From: Vicinamibacteraceae bacterium
GTDB lineage: Bacteria > Planctomycetota > Phycisphaerae > Phycisphaerales > UBA5793
Reading direction: 5' to 3'
DNA length: 32,107 bases
Assembly: GCA_011525805.1 (NCBI GenBank)
Contig: WYBR01000125.1
Span: 1 to 32,107 of the forward strand
Part shown: one piece after another, positions 4,108 to 13,621 of the stretch
How the letters are laid out: every line of letters starts with the position of its first letter
Position numbering within the stretch: position 1 is the stretch's first letter
Made by a program: the position numbers and the translations under genes
Notes under the pieces: generated by a model
Told to the model about the DNA's origin: nothing
What the model saw: only the letters and a program-made list of their open reading frames with translations
Database searches by the model: none

Positions 4108-6198
<2,091 letters not shown>

Positions 6199-8550
6199 TC
6201 ACAGCAGGGCGACAGGATCGACATCGATCGCCGTGTGGGCATCGGACACCGCCAGGCCCCGGTTGCGCAGGTCGGTGAGCAGGCGCTGGACGATCGCGGC
6301 CGTCGGAGCGATGATCTCGACGCCGAAGCGGTAATGATCGGCGATGCGCGAGAGGGCGCAGGGCGCGGGGCCCTTGATCCACGCCGCACGCCGGCCGGCC
6401 TCGCGCGGCAGAGCCTCGGCGATCGAGCGCAGTTCGGCCGCGAGCGACTCCGCCCGCTCGCCCGCCTTCGCGTGGTCAGTGTCGCGCACGACGATCCGGG
6501 CCATGCGGCCGACCGGCGGCAGACCCGCGTACTCGCGCTGCGGCATTTCGGAACGCACAAACGCGGCGTAGTCGTGCCGAGCCGCGCATTGCACGGCCGG
6601 ATGCTGCGGAGAGAATGTCTGCACGATCACGAGGCCGGCGTGCTCGCCGCGCCCGCAGCGCCCCGCCACCTGCGCGACGAGTTGGAAGGTACGCTCGGCG
6701 CTGCGGAAGTCCGGCAGGCTGATGGCCGTGTCGGCGTTGATCACCCCGACGAGTCGCACGTTGGGATAGTCAAGCCCCTTGGCGATCATCTGCGTGCCCA
6801 CCAGAAGGCGCACTTCTCCGGCGGCAAAGCGATCGAGCACGTCGTAGTAGTCGCGCGCGTGGCGCATCGAGTCGGAGTCCATGCGGCGAACGGAGTGCTC
6901 GTCGATGACCCCCGGCAGAAGCCGCTGGACTTCCTCTTCGATGCGCTGGGTGCCCATGCCGAAGGGGACGACTCGGGCGCCGCAGGCGGGGCAGCGGGGG
7001 TGGAAGACCTGCTCGGCGAGGCAGTGGTGGCAGCGCACCACGCCGCCGCGCGGCAGGGAACGGTCCTTGTGGTAGACCATCGCCACGTCGCAGTGCTCGC
7101 ACTGCATGACCCAGCCGCAGGCCTGGCTGGGGCAGGCGATGTAGTTGGCATAGCCGCGGCGGTTGAGCAGGAGCATCGCCTGACCGCCCCGCTCGAGCGT
7201 CTCGCGAAGCGCCGCGGCGAGGCGAGGGCCGATGAGGCGGATGCTCCGATCCCCTTCCGCCGCCGCCTGGCGCTGCTGCTCGCGGAGATCGATGACCTCG
7301 ACGCGCGGCAGTTTCGCGCCGGGGATGCGATCCGGCAGGTCGTGCCAGCGGTAGAGGTTTCGCTGAGCGGCGTTGTGCCAGGTTTCCAGCGAAGGGGTGG
7401 CTGAGCCGAGGATCACCCCCGCCCCTTCGATCTGCGCCCGCCGGATGGCGACGTCGCGCGCGTGGTAGCGCGGCGCCTGGTCCTGCTTGTAGGATGAGTC
7501 GTGCTCTTCATCGACGACGACCAGCCCGAGCGACCCGGCGGGAAGGGGCGCGAAGACGGCCGAGCGGGCCCCGACGACGACGCGCGCCTCGCCGCGAGCA
7601 ATCATCGCCCACTGCTCGTGGCGCTGGGCGGCGGTCAGCCCGCTGTGCAGGATCGCGACGCCCGTCTCGAAGCGCGCCAGAAAGCGCCCGACGGTCTGCG
7701 GCGTCAGGGCGATCTCGGGCACGAGCACGATCGCGGACCGGCCGCGGGCGATGAGCCGCTCGATGACGTTGAGGTAAATCTCCGTCTTGCCGCTGCCCGT
7801 CACGCCGTGCAGGACGTCCACGCCGAAACCCGCCTCGATCCGGGAGGAGACGGCGTCGATGATCGCCCGCTGCCGCGGCGTGAGACTCACCGGCTCGCTG
7901 GGCGGCACGGCGATCTTCTCCCAGTGCGCCCGGATCTCCGACTGACGAACCTGCGCGAGCAGGCCGCGGCCGATCAGCCGCCTGATCGGCGCGGCGGTCT
8001 TGAGTTCGGCCCGATCCGCGAGGTCGTGTATCTCGACCGGACGAGCGGGCGCGGCGGCAAGCGCATCGAGCACGCGCTGCTGCTGGGCGGTGAGGCGGCG
8101 CGGCGGCGCGGCCGGTGGCGCCTCGGGAAGATCGACGAGCACGCGCTGCGTCCGCCCGACGCCGCGCTTCACCGCCGCGGGAAGCATGGCGGCGAAGGTC
8201 GAGCCGAGCGGCGCGCAGTAGTAGCCGGCGATCCACTGCGCCAGTTCGATGAGTGGTCCGGCGAGTTCCGCGCCCGCGGCGTCAAGTCGGAGGATGGTCT
8301 TGAGGGCGCGGCCGCCCGCCTCCGCGGCATCCGGCCCCGGTTTGATCTCGACGACGAACCCCGGCGCCGGCCGGTTTCCCCTCCCCAGCGGCACGACCAC
8401 GCGCTGTCCGACGCGAAGTCCGGCCAGGCTCGGCGGAACCGAATAGGACAGGCCGTCGGGATAGCGGTCCAGGCCGCGCTCGGGTACGACGCGCGCCACG
8501 CCGATCGAAGGCTGGCGATCGTCCTCAAAGAGCAGCGGCGGTTCAGTCAT
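6199..8550 (-). CDS. priA: Primosomal protein N' (replication restart helicase PriA)
   Basis: A 783-residue superfamily 2 DNA helicase that reloads the replisome at stalled forks. The order is an N-terminal DNA-binding domain (YSVPPSLAGLRVGQRVVVPLG), a helicase core with Walker A GVTGSGKT (about 249-256) and a DEEH box (about 347-350), then the GSATPSLE motif, and a zinc-binding insert with eight cysteines (ACPSQAC, QCEHC, RCHHC, RCPAC). The helicase C-lobe has GTQMIAKGLDYPNV and GRCGRG. The ATG at 8550 (MTEPPLLFEDD) is chosen over a TTG 66 bases upstream, which would add 22 atypical residues. No strong ribosome binding site is seen. ligA follows closely in the same direction. Confidence 0.95.
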   Translation of the reverse strand: MTEPPLLFEDDRQPSIGVARVVPERGLDRYPDGLSYSVPPSLAGLRVGQRVVVPLGRGNRPAPGFVVEIKPGPDAAEAGGRALKTILRLDAAGAELAGPLIELAQWIAGYYCAPLGSTFAAMLPAAVKRGVGRTQRVLVDLPEAPPAAPPRRLTAQQQRVLDALAAAPARPVEIHDLADRAELKTAAPIRRLIGRGLLAQVRQSEIRAHWEKIAVPPSEPVSLTPRQRAIIDAVSSRIEAGFGVDVLHGVTGSGKTEIYLNVIERLIARGRSAIVLVPEIALTPQTVGRFLARFETGVAILHSGLTAAQRHEQWAMIARGEARVVVGARSAVFAPLPAGSLGLVVVDEEHDSSYKQDQAPRYHARDVAIRRAQIEGAGVILGSATPSLETWHNAAQRNLYRWHDLPDRIPGAKLPRVEVIDLREQQRQAAAEGDRSIRLIGPRLAAALRETLERGGQAMLLLNRRGYANYIACPSQACGWVMQCEHCDVAMVYHKDRSLPRGGVVRCHHCLAEQVFHPRCPACGARVVPFGMGTQRIEEEVQRLLPGVIDEHSVRRMDSDSMRHARDYYDVLDRFAAGEVRLLVGTQMIAKGLDYPNVRLVGVINADTAISLPDFRSAERTFQLVAQVAGRCGRGEHAGLVIVQTFSPQHPAVQCAARHDYAAFVRSEMPQREYAGLPPVGRMARIVVRDTDHAKAGERAESLAAELRSIAEALPREAGRRAAWIKGPAPCALSRIADHYRFGVEIIAPTAAIVQRLLTDLRNRGLAVSDAHTAIDVDPVALL

Positions 8551-8677
8551 GCCGCGCGCAGTGTAAGCGCCGGCAATCCCCCGGGCGCGGAAGTTCGGCA
8601 CGAGCGCAAGCGACAAGCGAGGGATGCGAAGTCACAAGCGGGCACGGAAGGCGCAGCACGCGATCTCACACGCTCTC

Positions 8678-8725: not shown

Positions 8726-9670
8726 TCACTCCGGCCCGATGTCGCGCAGGCTCAAGCCGAGTTCGCCGAGTTTGTCGCGGACTTCGACGAGGCTGGTCGT
8801 GCCGAAGTTCTTGACGCCCAGCAGTTCCGCTTCGGTGCGGGCGCAGAGGTCGCCGATGGTCTGCACGTCGAGCAGTTGCAGGGCCTTGCGGGCGCGGACG
8901 GAGAGTTCGAGGTCGGAGACGGGCTTGTTGAGCAGGTGCTCCTGCGGCGTGCCGCGGAGTTGCTCGTAGACGGCGTTGCGCAGCACGTTGTGCTGCTCGT
9001 CGAGCCCTTGGCCGAGGCGCAGGCCGCGGGCCGTGAGCATGTCCTTGATCTCCTGGAGGCTCGTCTCGCCGAAGTTCTTGTAGCCCAGGAGTTCCGCTTC
9101 GGTGATGCGCAGCAGATCGCCCAGCGACCGGATGTTCATCTTCTTGAGGCAGTTGCGGGCCCGGACTGAGAGTTCGAAGTCGGTCACGGGGGTGTCGAGC
9201 ATGGCGTTGCGCTTGGTGGCGTCGCGCTCGATCTCCTCATCCACTTCCATCTCGAAGGACGCCTCGACGTCCTTCATGTAGCGCAAGGCGCGGGCGTGAT
9301 TCGGCACGGTCTCGAGAACCTGGCGCAGGCACTTCTCGGCGCGGCGGTACATCCCGCGGTCTTCGTAGCAGATGGCGAGGTTGATGAGGGCGTTGACGTG
9401 CGCCGGCTGCTGCTCGACGCATCGCTCGTACATGGCGAGGGCCTCTTCCTCTTCGCCGACCAGGTCGAGGGCGTAGGCGAGTTTGAAGAGGGCTTCGGGG
9501 TTTTCGGGGTCGAACTGGACGCTCCGCCGGAACTCCTGAATCGCCGCCCACCGGTTGCCGGTCCGCTCCGCGTTGCAGGCGGCCACGAAGTGGTCGCGGC
9601 TCGCCTGCGGGTCGCGCGTCACCGCCTGCCCGGAAGAACCGATCAGAATATCCATCACGTCCTGCGCCAT
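8726..9670 (-). CDS. TPR protein with two tandem RNA polymerase alpha C-terminal domains
   Basis: A 314-residue cytoplasmic protein. Residues about 24-130 form roughly three TPR repeats. An acidic linker follows (about 139-150), then two copies of the RNA polymerase alpha-subunit C-terminal domain at about 158-219 and 247-308. The first copy (ELSVRARNCLKKMNI ... GETSLQEIKDML) keeps the residues matching E. coli R265 and N268, which contact UP-element DNA. The second (ELSVRARKALQLLDV ... GTTSLVEVRDKL) keeps the arginine but has lysine at the N268 position. There is no polymerase assembly domain, so this is not RpoA itself. I know such proteins only from planctomycetes and relatives. A role in binding promoter DNA or activators is an inference. 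The ATG at 9670 opens the protein; a TATGAT box lies about 80 bases upstream. Confidence 0.9.
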   Translation of the reverse strand: MAQDVMDILIGSSGQAVTRDPQASRDHFVAACNAERTGNRWAAIQEFRRSVQFDPENPEALFKLAYALDLVGEEEEALAMYERCVEQQPAHVNALINLAICYEDRGMYRRAEKCLRQVLETVPNHARALRYMKDVEASFEMEVDEEIERDATKRNAMLDTPVTDFELSVRARNCLKKMNIRSLGDLLRITEAELLGYKNFGETSLQEIKDMLTARGLRLGQGLDEQHNVLRNAVYEQLRGTPQEHLLNKPVSDLELSVRARKALQLLDVQTIGDLCARTEAELLGVKNFGTTSLVEVRDKLGELGLSLRDIGPE

Positions 9671-9749
9671 GTGGCCTGTCTCCGATTAGTGTGGATGGGT
9701 GCGAAACGGGGCCGGGCGAAACGGCAAGCCCGGGCCCGAACCGCCGGCA

Positions 9750-9755
9750 ATCATA
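9750..9755 (-). promoter_or_regulatory. Possible -10 (TATGAT) of the TPR/alphaCTD gene
   Basis: On the minus strand this reads TATGAT, 79 bases before the start at 9670. The -35 position is poor. It is one side of a divergent control region. Confidence 0.35.
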
Positions 9756-9859: not shown

Positions 9860-10318
9860 ATGCCCGACCGACCCTACGACAGCCGCGTCCCCTACGAACA
9901 GTCGCGCATCCACGCGGCGGCGATCTACTGCTCCGACGGCCGCGTGGGCGAGCACTTCGACGACTTTCTCCAGAACGGGCTGGGGTTGCCTCGCTACGAC
10001 CGCGTCGCCCTGCCTGGCGGGCCGGCCTGCCTCGCCGGCCACGCGCAGACGACCCTGGAACAGAGCAGCGTCGTGGATGAACTCCAGTTCCTCGTTGACG
10101 TTCATCATCTCAAGCGAGTCATCCTCATCGCCCACCAGGGATGCGCGTTCTACGCCACGCGCCTGCACCTGCAGGACCGCCGGCTGGAACTCGTGCAGAA
10201 GGCGGATCTCGTCCGCGCCACCGCGGCCGTCCAGGCCGTGACGAAGATCGACCGCATCGATGCGTACTTCGCGCGGCTGGTGGACAACTGCGTGCGGTTT
10301 GAGGCGGTGGAGGTCTGA
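9860..10318 (+). CDS. Small beta-carbonic-anhydrase-like protein
   Basis: A 152-residue soluble protein. It shows the two metal motifs of beta-class carbonic anhydrases: C24-x-D26-x-R28 (YCSDGR) and H92-x2-C95 (AHQGC), 68 residues apart. A hydrophobic strand (RVILIA) leads into the second motif, as in that family. Beta-carbonic anhydrases interconvert CO2 and bicarbonate with a zinc held by these Cys, His and Cys residues, and the Asp-Arg dyad gates the active site. The protein is shorter than most members (often near 200 residues), with little after the second motif, so its activity should not be assumed. It stands alone, with no transporter or carboxylase beside it. The start follows a TATAGT box by 23 bases. 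Confidence 0.75.
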   Translation: MPDRPYDSRVPYEQSRIHAAAIYCSDGRVGEHFDDFLQNGLGLPRYDRVALPGGPACLAGHAQTTLEQSSVVDELQFLVDVHHLKRVILIAHQGCAFYATRLHLQDRRLELVQKADLVRATAAVQAVTKIDRIDAYFARLVDNCVRFEAVEV

Positions 10319-10444: not shown

Positions 10445-13400
10445 TCAGCCGCCTTCGCGCACCTTGTCGCGATACACCTGCGCGTCCGCCGGGCGATTGA
10501 GTTGCTCGTAGCAGCGGACGAGTTCGCCCAGCGCCTCCTGAGTGAATCCATCGTCGAGTCCGAGGGTCGCTTCAAGCCCCTCGCAGGCGCGCCGGAGTTC
10601 GACTTCAGCCTCCTCGAAGCGATCAAGTTCGCGGAGGACTCGCCCGTAGCGACCGTGAATGAACCAGCGTTGCCAGTTGTCCTCCCCCAGCGACTTGTCG
10701 GCGGCGGAGGCGGCGGCGGCGAGCCAGGGCGCGGCCTCAGAGAGTCGGCGGGCGTCGCGATAGAACGCCGCGAAGTTGTTGCGGGCGAAGATCGCCTCGG
10801 GATGGTTCGGGCCGTAATGCGAGTCGAGCGATGCGATGACTTCGAGGTGCAGACGCTCGGCCTCATCGCCCCGACCCAGTTTCTCCAACAGGTCCGCCAG
10901 TTCCTGCTTGACCCGGAGCGACTCAATCGCGTGCTCTCCGTAGAGGGACTCGCGGTCGCGCAGCAGGTCCATGTACGCCTGCTCCAGTTCAGCGTTCTGG
11001 CCGGTGCTGGCGAGCATTCGGATGCGAGTAAAGATGGCGAACTGCGAGGCGGGATGATCGCGGCCGAGCCGCTCGGACGCGACCGCCACAATCTCATCGA
11101 GCAGGGAGGCGCAGCGGGTGTCCTTCCGCTCAAGCATCGCCGCCGCCAGGTTGGTCGCAAAGATGACAGTATCCGGGTGGTGCGGGCCTAGAGTGTTTCG
11201 CGCCCGTGGCAGCAGCGGGTCGAGGAGGCTCACGACCTCCTCAAAGCGTTGCTGCTCGAGCAGCCATTGCCCGTAATTGTTCGCTGCCGCGAGCGTGACA
11301 TAACTCTCCTCGCCCCACTGCGACTGCGCCGCCTCATAGGCCTCGCGCAGCAGGCGCTCCGACTCGGCGATGTCGCCCGAGGCCAGCAGCCCGTGGGCGT
11401 AGTTGGCGGTAACGGAGACGGTCTCCTTGCCGAAGCCTCCCTCGCGGGCGCGGTGGGCGGCGATCGTCTCGCGGAAAATGGCGAAGGCGTCCTCGAAGCG
11501 CTGCTGGAACACTCGCAGCGAAGCCACGTCGTTGCCGAATTCCAGCGTGTGCTGGTCCGACTCTCCGTAGCGGCGGCGCTGCGCCTGCCACGCCGTGGTC
11601 AGCAGTTCATCCGCCTCGTCGAGCGCACGCTGGTGGAGGCGCACCAGCCCGAGGGCGTTCATCGCCAGCAGGGTCGTGCGCGCCTCGGGGCCGTCGAGCC
11701 GCTTGAGGTCTTCGAGGGCTTGCGCGATGAGGCGCTCGCCCTCGTCGAGGATGCCGATGCTCAGGTAGAGGCTGCCGAAGGTGGAGCGGAGCGCCGCCGC
11801 GAGGGCTGGCTCGTCCTTCAACTCGACGTCGAGGCTCGCCGCCGCCGGATCGAGCACCTGCACGACGCGGGCGTGGCGGCCGAGTTCGTTGACGCGCGCC
11901 GCCACGAACATGTCGCGCAGGTAGTTCACGATGCGCCGGTTCTTCTCCGACTCGATCTCCGCGAGGCGGCGCAGGTCGCGCTCGCGCACGAGCCCGACGC
12001 CGACGAGGCCCAGCAGCGCCGCGAGGACGATGATCGCGGCGAGGCTCAGCCGCATGAACCGCTGCCGCCGCTCCGCCTTGTCGCGCGCCTCGATCTGCGC
12101 GTGCCGCTCGCGCCGGCGGCGCGGCAACTGCTCGAGGCGCTCGGCCAGTTCATCCGCGGTGCGCAGGCGGCGCGACGGATCCCCCTCGACGCACCTGGAG
12201 ATATCCTCGCGCAGCAGCGCATCGTCGATGTCGCGCTCCCACCCGACCGCCAGCGGGCGCTCGAGATCGGCCACGATCAACTGGTAGAGGAGCACGCCCA
12301 GCGCGTAGATGTCCCCCTGCACCGTGAACGCCTTGCCGATGAGCATCTCCGGCGGCGCGTAGAGGCGCGTGCCGGTGCGGCTCGACTCGTTCTCCGAGAG
12401 AAGACCGGTGAATCCCGTCATGGTGATCTGCCGGGCGTCGAGGGCCGTCCGGTCGGCGAGGATGCCGATGCCGAAGTCGGCGAGGCGCGGCCGCGGATCG
12501 CTGCCCTTGGTCTGCTGGATGAGGATGTTCGAGGGCTTGATGTCCTTGTGGAGCACGCCGACGGAATGCGCCGCGGCGACGGCGCGGGCCGTGCGCGCCG
12601 CGAGGTCAAGGCGCGTCGCCACCGGCACCTGGGCCAGCCCCCCCTGCTGCCTGGCCCAGTTGTTCAGGTCGCCCGCCTCGGTGAACTCGACCTCGAGGAA
12701 GTACGGCGCCCTCTCGAGTTGAACCTCGTACAGCCGGGCGATGTCGTCCCGGTCGCCGAGAACCTCGCGCAAGACGCGAAAGAGCGTCAGTTCGCGCTTG
12801 AGGGAGCGCAGACGGTCCTGGTCAAAGCAGAACTTGAAGGCGCGGTGGACGCGGGTTTTCTCGTGCGTACCGAGCCAGACTTCGCCGAATCCGCCCTCGC
12901 CGATGCGCTTCTCGAGTTTCCAGCCCGGCCGCGTCGGCACTTCCAGACCCGTGGCGGGACGCCAGCCGAGCGTCTCATCCTGTCCCGGCGCGACCGCCCG
13001 CTGGGCCTTCTCCGAGTCGCGCGGCGCCCGCAGGGGCGACTCGCCCTGCGCCCCGACCTCGAACACCTCCAGAGGCTCGTCCGTGCCCTTGAAGCGATAA
13101 GGTCCGTGCGCCATCCACTGAATCGTGAGTAACCGCCCGTCGGACGCCGGAGGATGCTTGCGGACGTATTGCCGGGCGCTGTCGAAGAGGGCGCGCGTCA
13201 GCAGAATCTGCCCCCCTTCGGCGAGGCCCATGATGCGGGCGGCCAGGTCGATCGCCAAGCCGGAGAGTTTCGCGCCCCCCTGAGGGTCCGCCTCAAGTTC
13301 CGAGACTTCGCCGAGGTGCAGGCCGATGCGGACGTGCAGCGGCGGCCCAGGCCAGGGCTCGCGCCGCAAGGCGTCCTGAAACAGGAGGGCGAAACTCACG

Positions 13401-13621
13401 GCATTGCTGACGGTATTGAAGCGGGCGAGGAAGCCGTCCCCCGTGTCCTTGAGAATCTCCCCATCCCCGACCGCGTCGAAGGTCCGGCGGAACAGGCGGT
13501 CGTGCTGCGCAATGATCTGCGCGGCCTCGGCGTCGCCGAGCCGGCTCTTGAGTTCCACCGAGCCGACGATGTCCGAGAAAAGCAGGACAACGAGGCGCGT
13601 GATGGTCGTGGTTTGGGACAT
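10445..13621 (-). CDS. Class III nucleotide cyclase - Ser/Thr kinase - TM - TPR fusion protein
   Basis: A 1058-residue signalling protein. Residues about 10-190 form a class III adenylate/guanylate cyclase domain with FSDIVGS (metal Asp D17), KDTGDGF (second Asp D62) and VRIGLHLGEV. Residues about 234-500 form a Hanks-type kinase with glycine loop GEGGFGEVW (241-249), likely ATP lysine K263, catalytic HKDIKPSN (358-365; HKD in place of the usual HRD), DFG (382-384) and APPE (422-425). One membrane segment (about 525-545) leads to a long TPR region (about 600-1058), probably outside the cytoplasm. Kinase-TM-TPR proteins are common in planctomycetes, and the added cyclase is the unusual part. 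The start ATG follows GGGAG, and a TTGCTG-17-TACGCT promoter lies upstream. Confidence 0.92.
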   Translation of the reverse strand: MSQTTTITRLVVLLFSDIVGSVELKSRLGDAEAAQIIAQHDRLFRRTFDAVGDGEILKDTGDGFLARFNTVSNAVSFALLFQDALRREPWPGPPLHVRIGLHLGEVSELEADPQGGAKLSGLAIDLAARIMGLAEGGQILLTRALFDSARQYVRKHPPASDGRLLTIQWMAHGPYRFKGTDEPLEVFEVGAQGESPLRAPRDSEKAQRAVAPGQDETLGWRPATGLEVPTRPGWKLEKRIGEGGFGEVWLGTHEKTRVHRAFKFCFDQDRLRSLKRELTLFRVLREVLGDRDDIARLYEVQLERAPYFLEVEFTEAGDLNNWARQQGGLAQVPVATRLDLAARTARAVAAAHSVGVLHKDIKPSNILIQQTKGSDPRPRLADFGIGILADRTALDARQITMTGFTGLLSENESSRTGTRLYAPPEMLIGKAFTVQGDIYALGVLLYQLIVADLERPLAVGWERDIDDALLREDISRCVEGDPSRRLRTADELAERLEQLPRRRRERHAQIEARDKAERRQRFMRLSLAAIIVLAALLGLVGVGLVRERDLRRLAEIESEKNRRIVNYLRDMFVAARVNELGRHARVVQVLDPAAASLDVELKDEPALAAALRSTFGSLYLSIGILDEGERLIAQALEDLKRLDGPEARTTLLAMNALGLVRLHQRALDEADELLTTAWQAQRRRYGESDQHTLEFGNDVASLRVFQQRFEDAFAIFRETIAAHRAREGGFGKETVSVTANYAHGLLASGDIAESERLLREAYEAAQSQWGEESYVTLAAANNYGQWLLEQQRFEEVVSLLDPLLPRARNTLGPHHPDTVIFATNLAAAMLERKDTRCASLLDEIVAVASERLGRDHPASQFAIFTRIRMLASTGQNAELEQAYMDLLRDRESLYGEHAIESLRVKQELADLLEKLGRGDEAERLHLEVIASLDSHYGPNHPEAIFARNNFAAFYRDARRLSEAAPWLAAAASAADKSLGEDNWQRWFIHGRYGRVLRELDRFEEAEVELRRACEGLEATLGLDDGFTQEALGELVRCYEQLNRPADAQVYRDKVREGG

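Follow-up and report, generated by a model that had tools for sequence, protein, structure and literature searches.

RNA polymerase alpha C-terminal domains (alphaCTDs) are generally thought of as the tails of RpoA. Among the proteins other than RpoA that have alphaCTD-like stretches, we know of none that combines TPRs with two alphaCTDs, and proteins of this kind are presumably named after the alphaCTD in public annotation. RbpA of Actinobacteria provides a precedent for a phylum-specific RNA polymerase accessory factor whose role is proven. Outside RpoA, the CTD region is matched by the NCBIfam models for BREX PglW (NF033442), PRK07758 and the RpoC of PRK14906. SARP/TPR activators such as AfsR likewise contain TPRs and act as transcription factors at RNA polymerase; AfsR joins its TPRs to a SARP domain and a nucleotide-binding oligomerization domain and has no alphaCTDs of its own (PMC10936776).

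Here we analyse a gene in a 32,107-nt stretch of planctomycete DNA (the window), whose product carries two alphaCTDs in tandem behind TPRs. Unlike RpoA, this TPR-(alphaCTD)2 protein has no N-terminal assembly domain. The fold and the DNA-contact residues of the RpoA CTD (PF03118) are the same in both copies, which group apart from the RpoA CTDs of the same phylum, and the protein scores far below the cut-offs of NF033442, PRK07758 and PRK14906. It resembles RbpA in its proposed role, as a conserved helper of one phylum's polymerase, although here we infer that role, and the RbpA fold is unrelated. Our search of the published literature found no description of such a protein; while its domains are known, their phylum-wide occurrence as a separate architecture, its age, the selection on it and its link to ruvA were found in no published description.

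Domain layout and predicted fold

The open reading frame (positions 8726-9670, stop codon included; this and all features of the gene given below lie on the minus strand) encodes 314 amino acids from an ATG start. A GGAG ribosome-binding site lies at 9680-9683, upstream of the ATG at 9670, and five relatives share both this Shine-Dalgarno motif and the N-terminus QDVMDILI. A strict scan for a consensus promoter and terminator found neither; a TATGAT at 9750-9755 is a tentative candidate for the -10 element, with TATGAT or TATCAT similarly placed in the window, L034 and L217-L219.

The TPR domain spans residues ~21-125 (9296-9610) and contains approximately three repeats. Pfam TPR models match residues ~30-128, several of them over cut-off, and AlphaFold 2 predicts helices from H21-36 to H108-121 with a pLDDT of ~97. 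This N-terminal part is longer in most of the phylum than in the window protein. A long predicted helix (residues 126-158, 9197-9295), in which R127, A128, K133, D134 and S138 are conserved, leads into the first alphaCTD (CTD1, residues 153-220, 9011-9214), and a predicted linker helix (residues 221-238, 8957-9010) separates it from the second (CTD2, residues 243-309, 8744-8944). The AlphaFold model of the full protein has a mean pLDDT of 91 and a pTM of 0.58, the latter modest value suggesting flexible placement of the domains.

A preliminary description of the locus, based on the DNA alone, had read the product as two alphaCTDs in a stand-alone protein behind TPRs, and the profile matches bear this out. 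RNA_pol_A_CTD (PF03118) matches twice, with E 1.9e-41; the two stretches score 79.5 and 66.7 bits individually and 140.1 bits together (cut-off 23.8), and cover 9032-9217 for CTD1 and 8762-8944 for CTD2. The assembly domain of RpoA (beta, beta', dimerisation) is absent and only TPRs precede the CTDs. Against the RpoA model TIGR02027, the window protein scores 138.5 bits, under the cut-off of 227.8.

As TPR structures took up the top of the fold search with the full-length model, we predicted the C-terminal half by itself. In the predicted model m42f02f5e9f85, CTD1 matched the E. coli alphaCTD with a Z of 12.9 (0.8 Å over 67 residues, 52% identity) and CTD2 matched 1LB2 with a Z of 11.9 (2.3 Å over 69 residues, 45% identity). 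Comparison with the E. coli alphaCTD, which had been suggested as a test of the domain assignment, thus returned an alphaCTD fold for each predicted domain. The best fold matches of the C-terminal half were RNA polymerase alpha subunits throughout. Neither RuvA nor other HhH proteins appeared among the fold matches listed, which is still compatible with a distant likeness.

Contact residues and divergence of the two alphaCTDs

For the positions of E. coli alpha discussed here (R265, N268, N294 etc.) we assume the roles familiar from E. coli work, and residue counts refer to 126 proteins, mostly from Phycisphaerae. In CTD1, R265 corresponds to R170 (9161-9163; Arg in 99% of sequences) and N268 to N173 (9152-9154; N in 65%, T in 33%), as originally proposed. 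In CTD2, R265 corresponds to R259 (8894-8896), an Arg in 100% of sequences, while the position of N268 has changed to a base, K262 (8885-8887; K in 76%, R in 17%, N in 2%). The earlier view that CTD2 keeps only the arginine is therefore correct as regards R265 and N268, but the other contact residues are kept as well as those of CTD1. The equivalents of N294 (99% in CTD1, 97% in CTD2), G296 (100% and 97%), S299 (97% in both) and E302 (100% and 99%) are nearly invariant, and R265, N294, G296, S299 (as S or T) and E302 are all present in both CTDs of 122/126 proteins. An N268 equivalent is typical of RpoA and is not required for a Pfam match. Judged from the aligned sequences, CTD2 has lost it through a substitution by Lys or Arg that is shared across the family (93% of members), not through decay.

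The exceptions to the full contact set are L017 (CTD1), L117 and L130 (CTD2), and L112, whose match is truncated by the contig end. In L117 and L130, from families f49 and f77, the N294, G296 and S299 positions are gone from CTD2, and in L017, from a single genome (G220), R265 and others are gone from CTD1. These three loci represent natural single-domain variants that would be of use for tests.

Position 267 is Arg in 97% of CTD1 and 96% of CTD2 sequences and mostly Ser in RpoA, an added conserved Lys occupies position 293 in both CTDs, and mean net charge is +2.1 for CTD1 and +1.7 for CTD2, compared with +0.5 for the RpoA CTD. The activator- and sigma-facing equivalents of E286, E288 and D259 are kept in CTD1, where that of D259 is invariant and that of E261 is E or D.

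In a tree of 61 alphaCTDs, CTD1, CTD2 and the RpoA CTD each formed one group (supports 92/95, 96/82 and 94/89), on a short alignment of 61 columns and with some long CTD2 branches. The existence of three separate groups indicates that duplication and recruitment predate the radiation of the sampled phylum. Across seven deep lineages, CTD1 is conserved above RpoA, with a mean identity of 77% as against 58% for both whole RpoA and the RpoA CTD; CTD2 stands at 61% and the TPR part at 43%. Such slow evolution of CTD1 suggests that this domain has a specific partner.

Occurrence in Planctomycetota

A search for the same architecture across Planctomycetota, as the preliminary description had proposed, found full-length homologues in 276/294 sampled genomes (E 1e-35 or lower). 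Completeness is 54-92% for the 18 genomes without a match, and no genome of at least 93% completeness lacks the gene; for the two that are at least 90% complete and without a match (G031 and G143), family or genus members carry it. The window genome contains three PF03118 matches, one in RpoA (contig C98) and two in the TPR protein, and this pattern of RpoA plus one such gene recurs in almost every one of the 120 relatives searched. G384, G321 and G378 have four or five PF03118 matches instead, and the first of these genomes may have two copies of the gene. Both R265 and N268 are present in the RpoA of the phylum (31/31 sampled), and given this intact CTD on RpoA, the twin-CTD protein is an addition and not a replacement. 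It is encoded by a core gene of the phylum and is no local oddity.

Beyond the phylum, we searched 150 further genomes of another phylum, a set centred on the Dehalococcoidia-labelled MAG G401, and found no full-length homologue besides one in G401 itself (64% identity to the window protein). There, the gene sits on a planctomycete contig (L042) within a MAG whose RpoA is non-planctomycete, and it most likely reflects contamination of this public genome. The labels Cyanobacteria (L040) and Limnohabitans (L108) look wrong for the MAGs that bear them, whose RpoA is planctomycete-like. In a search of genome contigs, the best 80 loci were nearly all labelled Phycisphaerae or Planctomycetota. No plasmid or phage match covered 80% of the query; those listed comprised the CTD region only and were RpoA wherever annotated.

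Possible roles and gene neighbourhood

The reading we favour, with a probability of about one half, is that the TPR-(alphaCTD)2 protein serves the whole phylum as an auxiliary RNA polymerase/promoter DNA-binding factor, supplying a second alphaCTD pair in trans. Judging from the conserved residues and predicted fold, both alphaCTDs would bind AT-rich minor grooves upstream of promoters via R170 and R259, like the alphaCTD of RpoA. A further contact, with sigma region 4, may be made by D164 and E166 of CTD1 (equivalent to E. coli D259 and E261), and the TPR groove may accommodate a partner, for which RNA polymerase, sigma factors and regulators are candidates. The polymerase would in effect be lent a second, tethered alphaCTD pair. 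This reading is supported by the alphaCTD fold, the kept contact residues, the basic charge, the D259/E261 equivalents, the conservation of CTD1 and the occurrence of the gene. On the other hand, no transcription gene adjoins it and the recurrent neighbour is ruvA, the DNA-binding residues of an alphaCTD would suit any DNA-binding role, and the contact set is lost from CTD2 in two families and from CTD1 in one genome. The original suggestion of a soluble DNA-binding factor with partner-binding TPRs fits the fold, the contact residues and the phylum-wide conservation, but the ruvA and priA-ligA neighbours leave room for a role in recombination or repair.

Neighbourhoods were compared in 60 loci from across the phylum outside Phycisphaerales, the order of the window. 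In 37/60 of these loci, from ~26 families, ruvA lies downstream on the same strand, mostly within 130 nt, with our gene as the first of the pair (for three loci, TIGR00084 confirmed the identity as RuvA). By comparison, ruvB is kept in only 8 of 60 and no upstream neighbour recurs in more than 12. Families f49 and f77 show the order gene-ruvA-ruvB-spoIID-tgt, and in Phycisphaerae and some others spoIID (so named from reading the sequence) or tgt directly follows the gene. Based on these orders, it seems probable that the gene ancestrally headed a ruvA-ruvB-spoIID-tgt cluster. Retention of ruvA far more often than the other cluster genes suggests that co-expression matters, without proving a shared function.

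The chief rival, which we regard as possible but clearly less probable, is a recombination or replication-restart factor. In that case, the two alphaCTD-type domains would have been recruited to bind minor grooves or structured DNA in general, and the TPRs would dock on a repair protein such as RuvA/RuvB or PriA. This reading keeps its weight through the recurrent ruvA, set against the scarcity of ruvB and the unconserved upstream side, and through the genes that follow in the window's own family. The next same-strand gene is priA (6199-8616, minus strand; TIGR00595, 559 bits; true start possibly an ATG near 8550), as it also is elsewhere in the genus and in family member G298; ligA comes after it (4108-6165, minus strand; NF005932, 818 bits), and the family retains this arrangement. 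A conserved ligA/priA context for the phylum as a whole was considered and rejected, being absent outside this family. Against a recombination factor, the domains are alphaCTDs proper in sequence and structure, with the sigma-facing acids of CTD1 kept, and the ruvA of the window genome is located on another contig. Furthermore, spoIID and tgt of the old cluster often follow where ruvA is absent, so the ruvA link may be inherited order only. A combined proposal, which we consider speculative, is a universal Planctomycetota transcription accessory, a trans-acting alphaCTD pair older than the radiation, better conserved than RpoA and co-expressed with ruvA, that perhaps couples transcription to Holliday-junction or fork processing.

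It is unlikely that the protein is a titrator, binding the activators or sigma that contact the RpoA alphaCTD and lowering their activity while its TPRs sense a partner. The lack of an assembly domain and the E286, E288 and D259 equivalents of CTD1 would suit such a role, but a pure decoy needs neither basic domains nor DNA-contact residues that are among the best kept. Two tethered, basic minor-groove binders would also suit a protein that organises the nucleoid or chromosome and binds AT-rich DNA with no specific role at promoters; we think this quite improbable, as it offers no obvious role for the TPR domain or the sigma-facing acids, and the very slow rate at which CTD1 evolves points to a specific partner. 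A mis-assembled fusion or decaying gene is scarcely credible given the same architecture in 276/294 genomes, strong purifying selection, and the conserved start and ribosome-binding site.

A phylum-wide twin-alphaCTD protein with a slowly evolving CTD1 would mean that a component absent from model bacteria takes part in promoter recognition, or in another DNA process, in Planctomycetota, which probably possess an additional transcription (or DNA-handling) factor not yet described. Its function is directly testable, since a transposon-insertion essentiality map of Planctopirus limnophila has been published (PMC10632474).

Among 80 Phycisphaerae loci, no transcription genes were found beside the gene; a MATE-like transporter lies upstream in 35/80, and in 24/80 the downstream gene encodes a secreted protein resembling SpoIID (both named from reading the sequences). 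Upstream in the window, a divergent gene at 9860-10318 (plus strand), kept in three congeners, encodes a putative carbonic-anhydrase-like protein (PF20393). Beyond it lies 10445-13621 (minus strand), whose 1058-aa product combines a Ser/Thr kinase with many TPRs and resembles nucleotide cyclases at its N-terminus; within the genus it stays near the TPR-(alphaCTD)2 gene, at varying distance. Elsewhere in the phylum, two short open frames (L164:1836-2300 in G167 and L165:2047-2457 in G121; 155 and 137 aa, the real proteins probably being shorter) hold little beyond one alphaCTD, with the R265, N268 and N294 equivalents present; two families thus have a minigene for a stand-alone alphaCTD.
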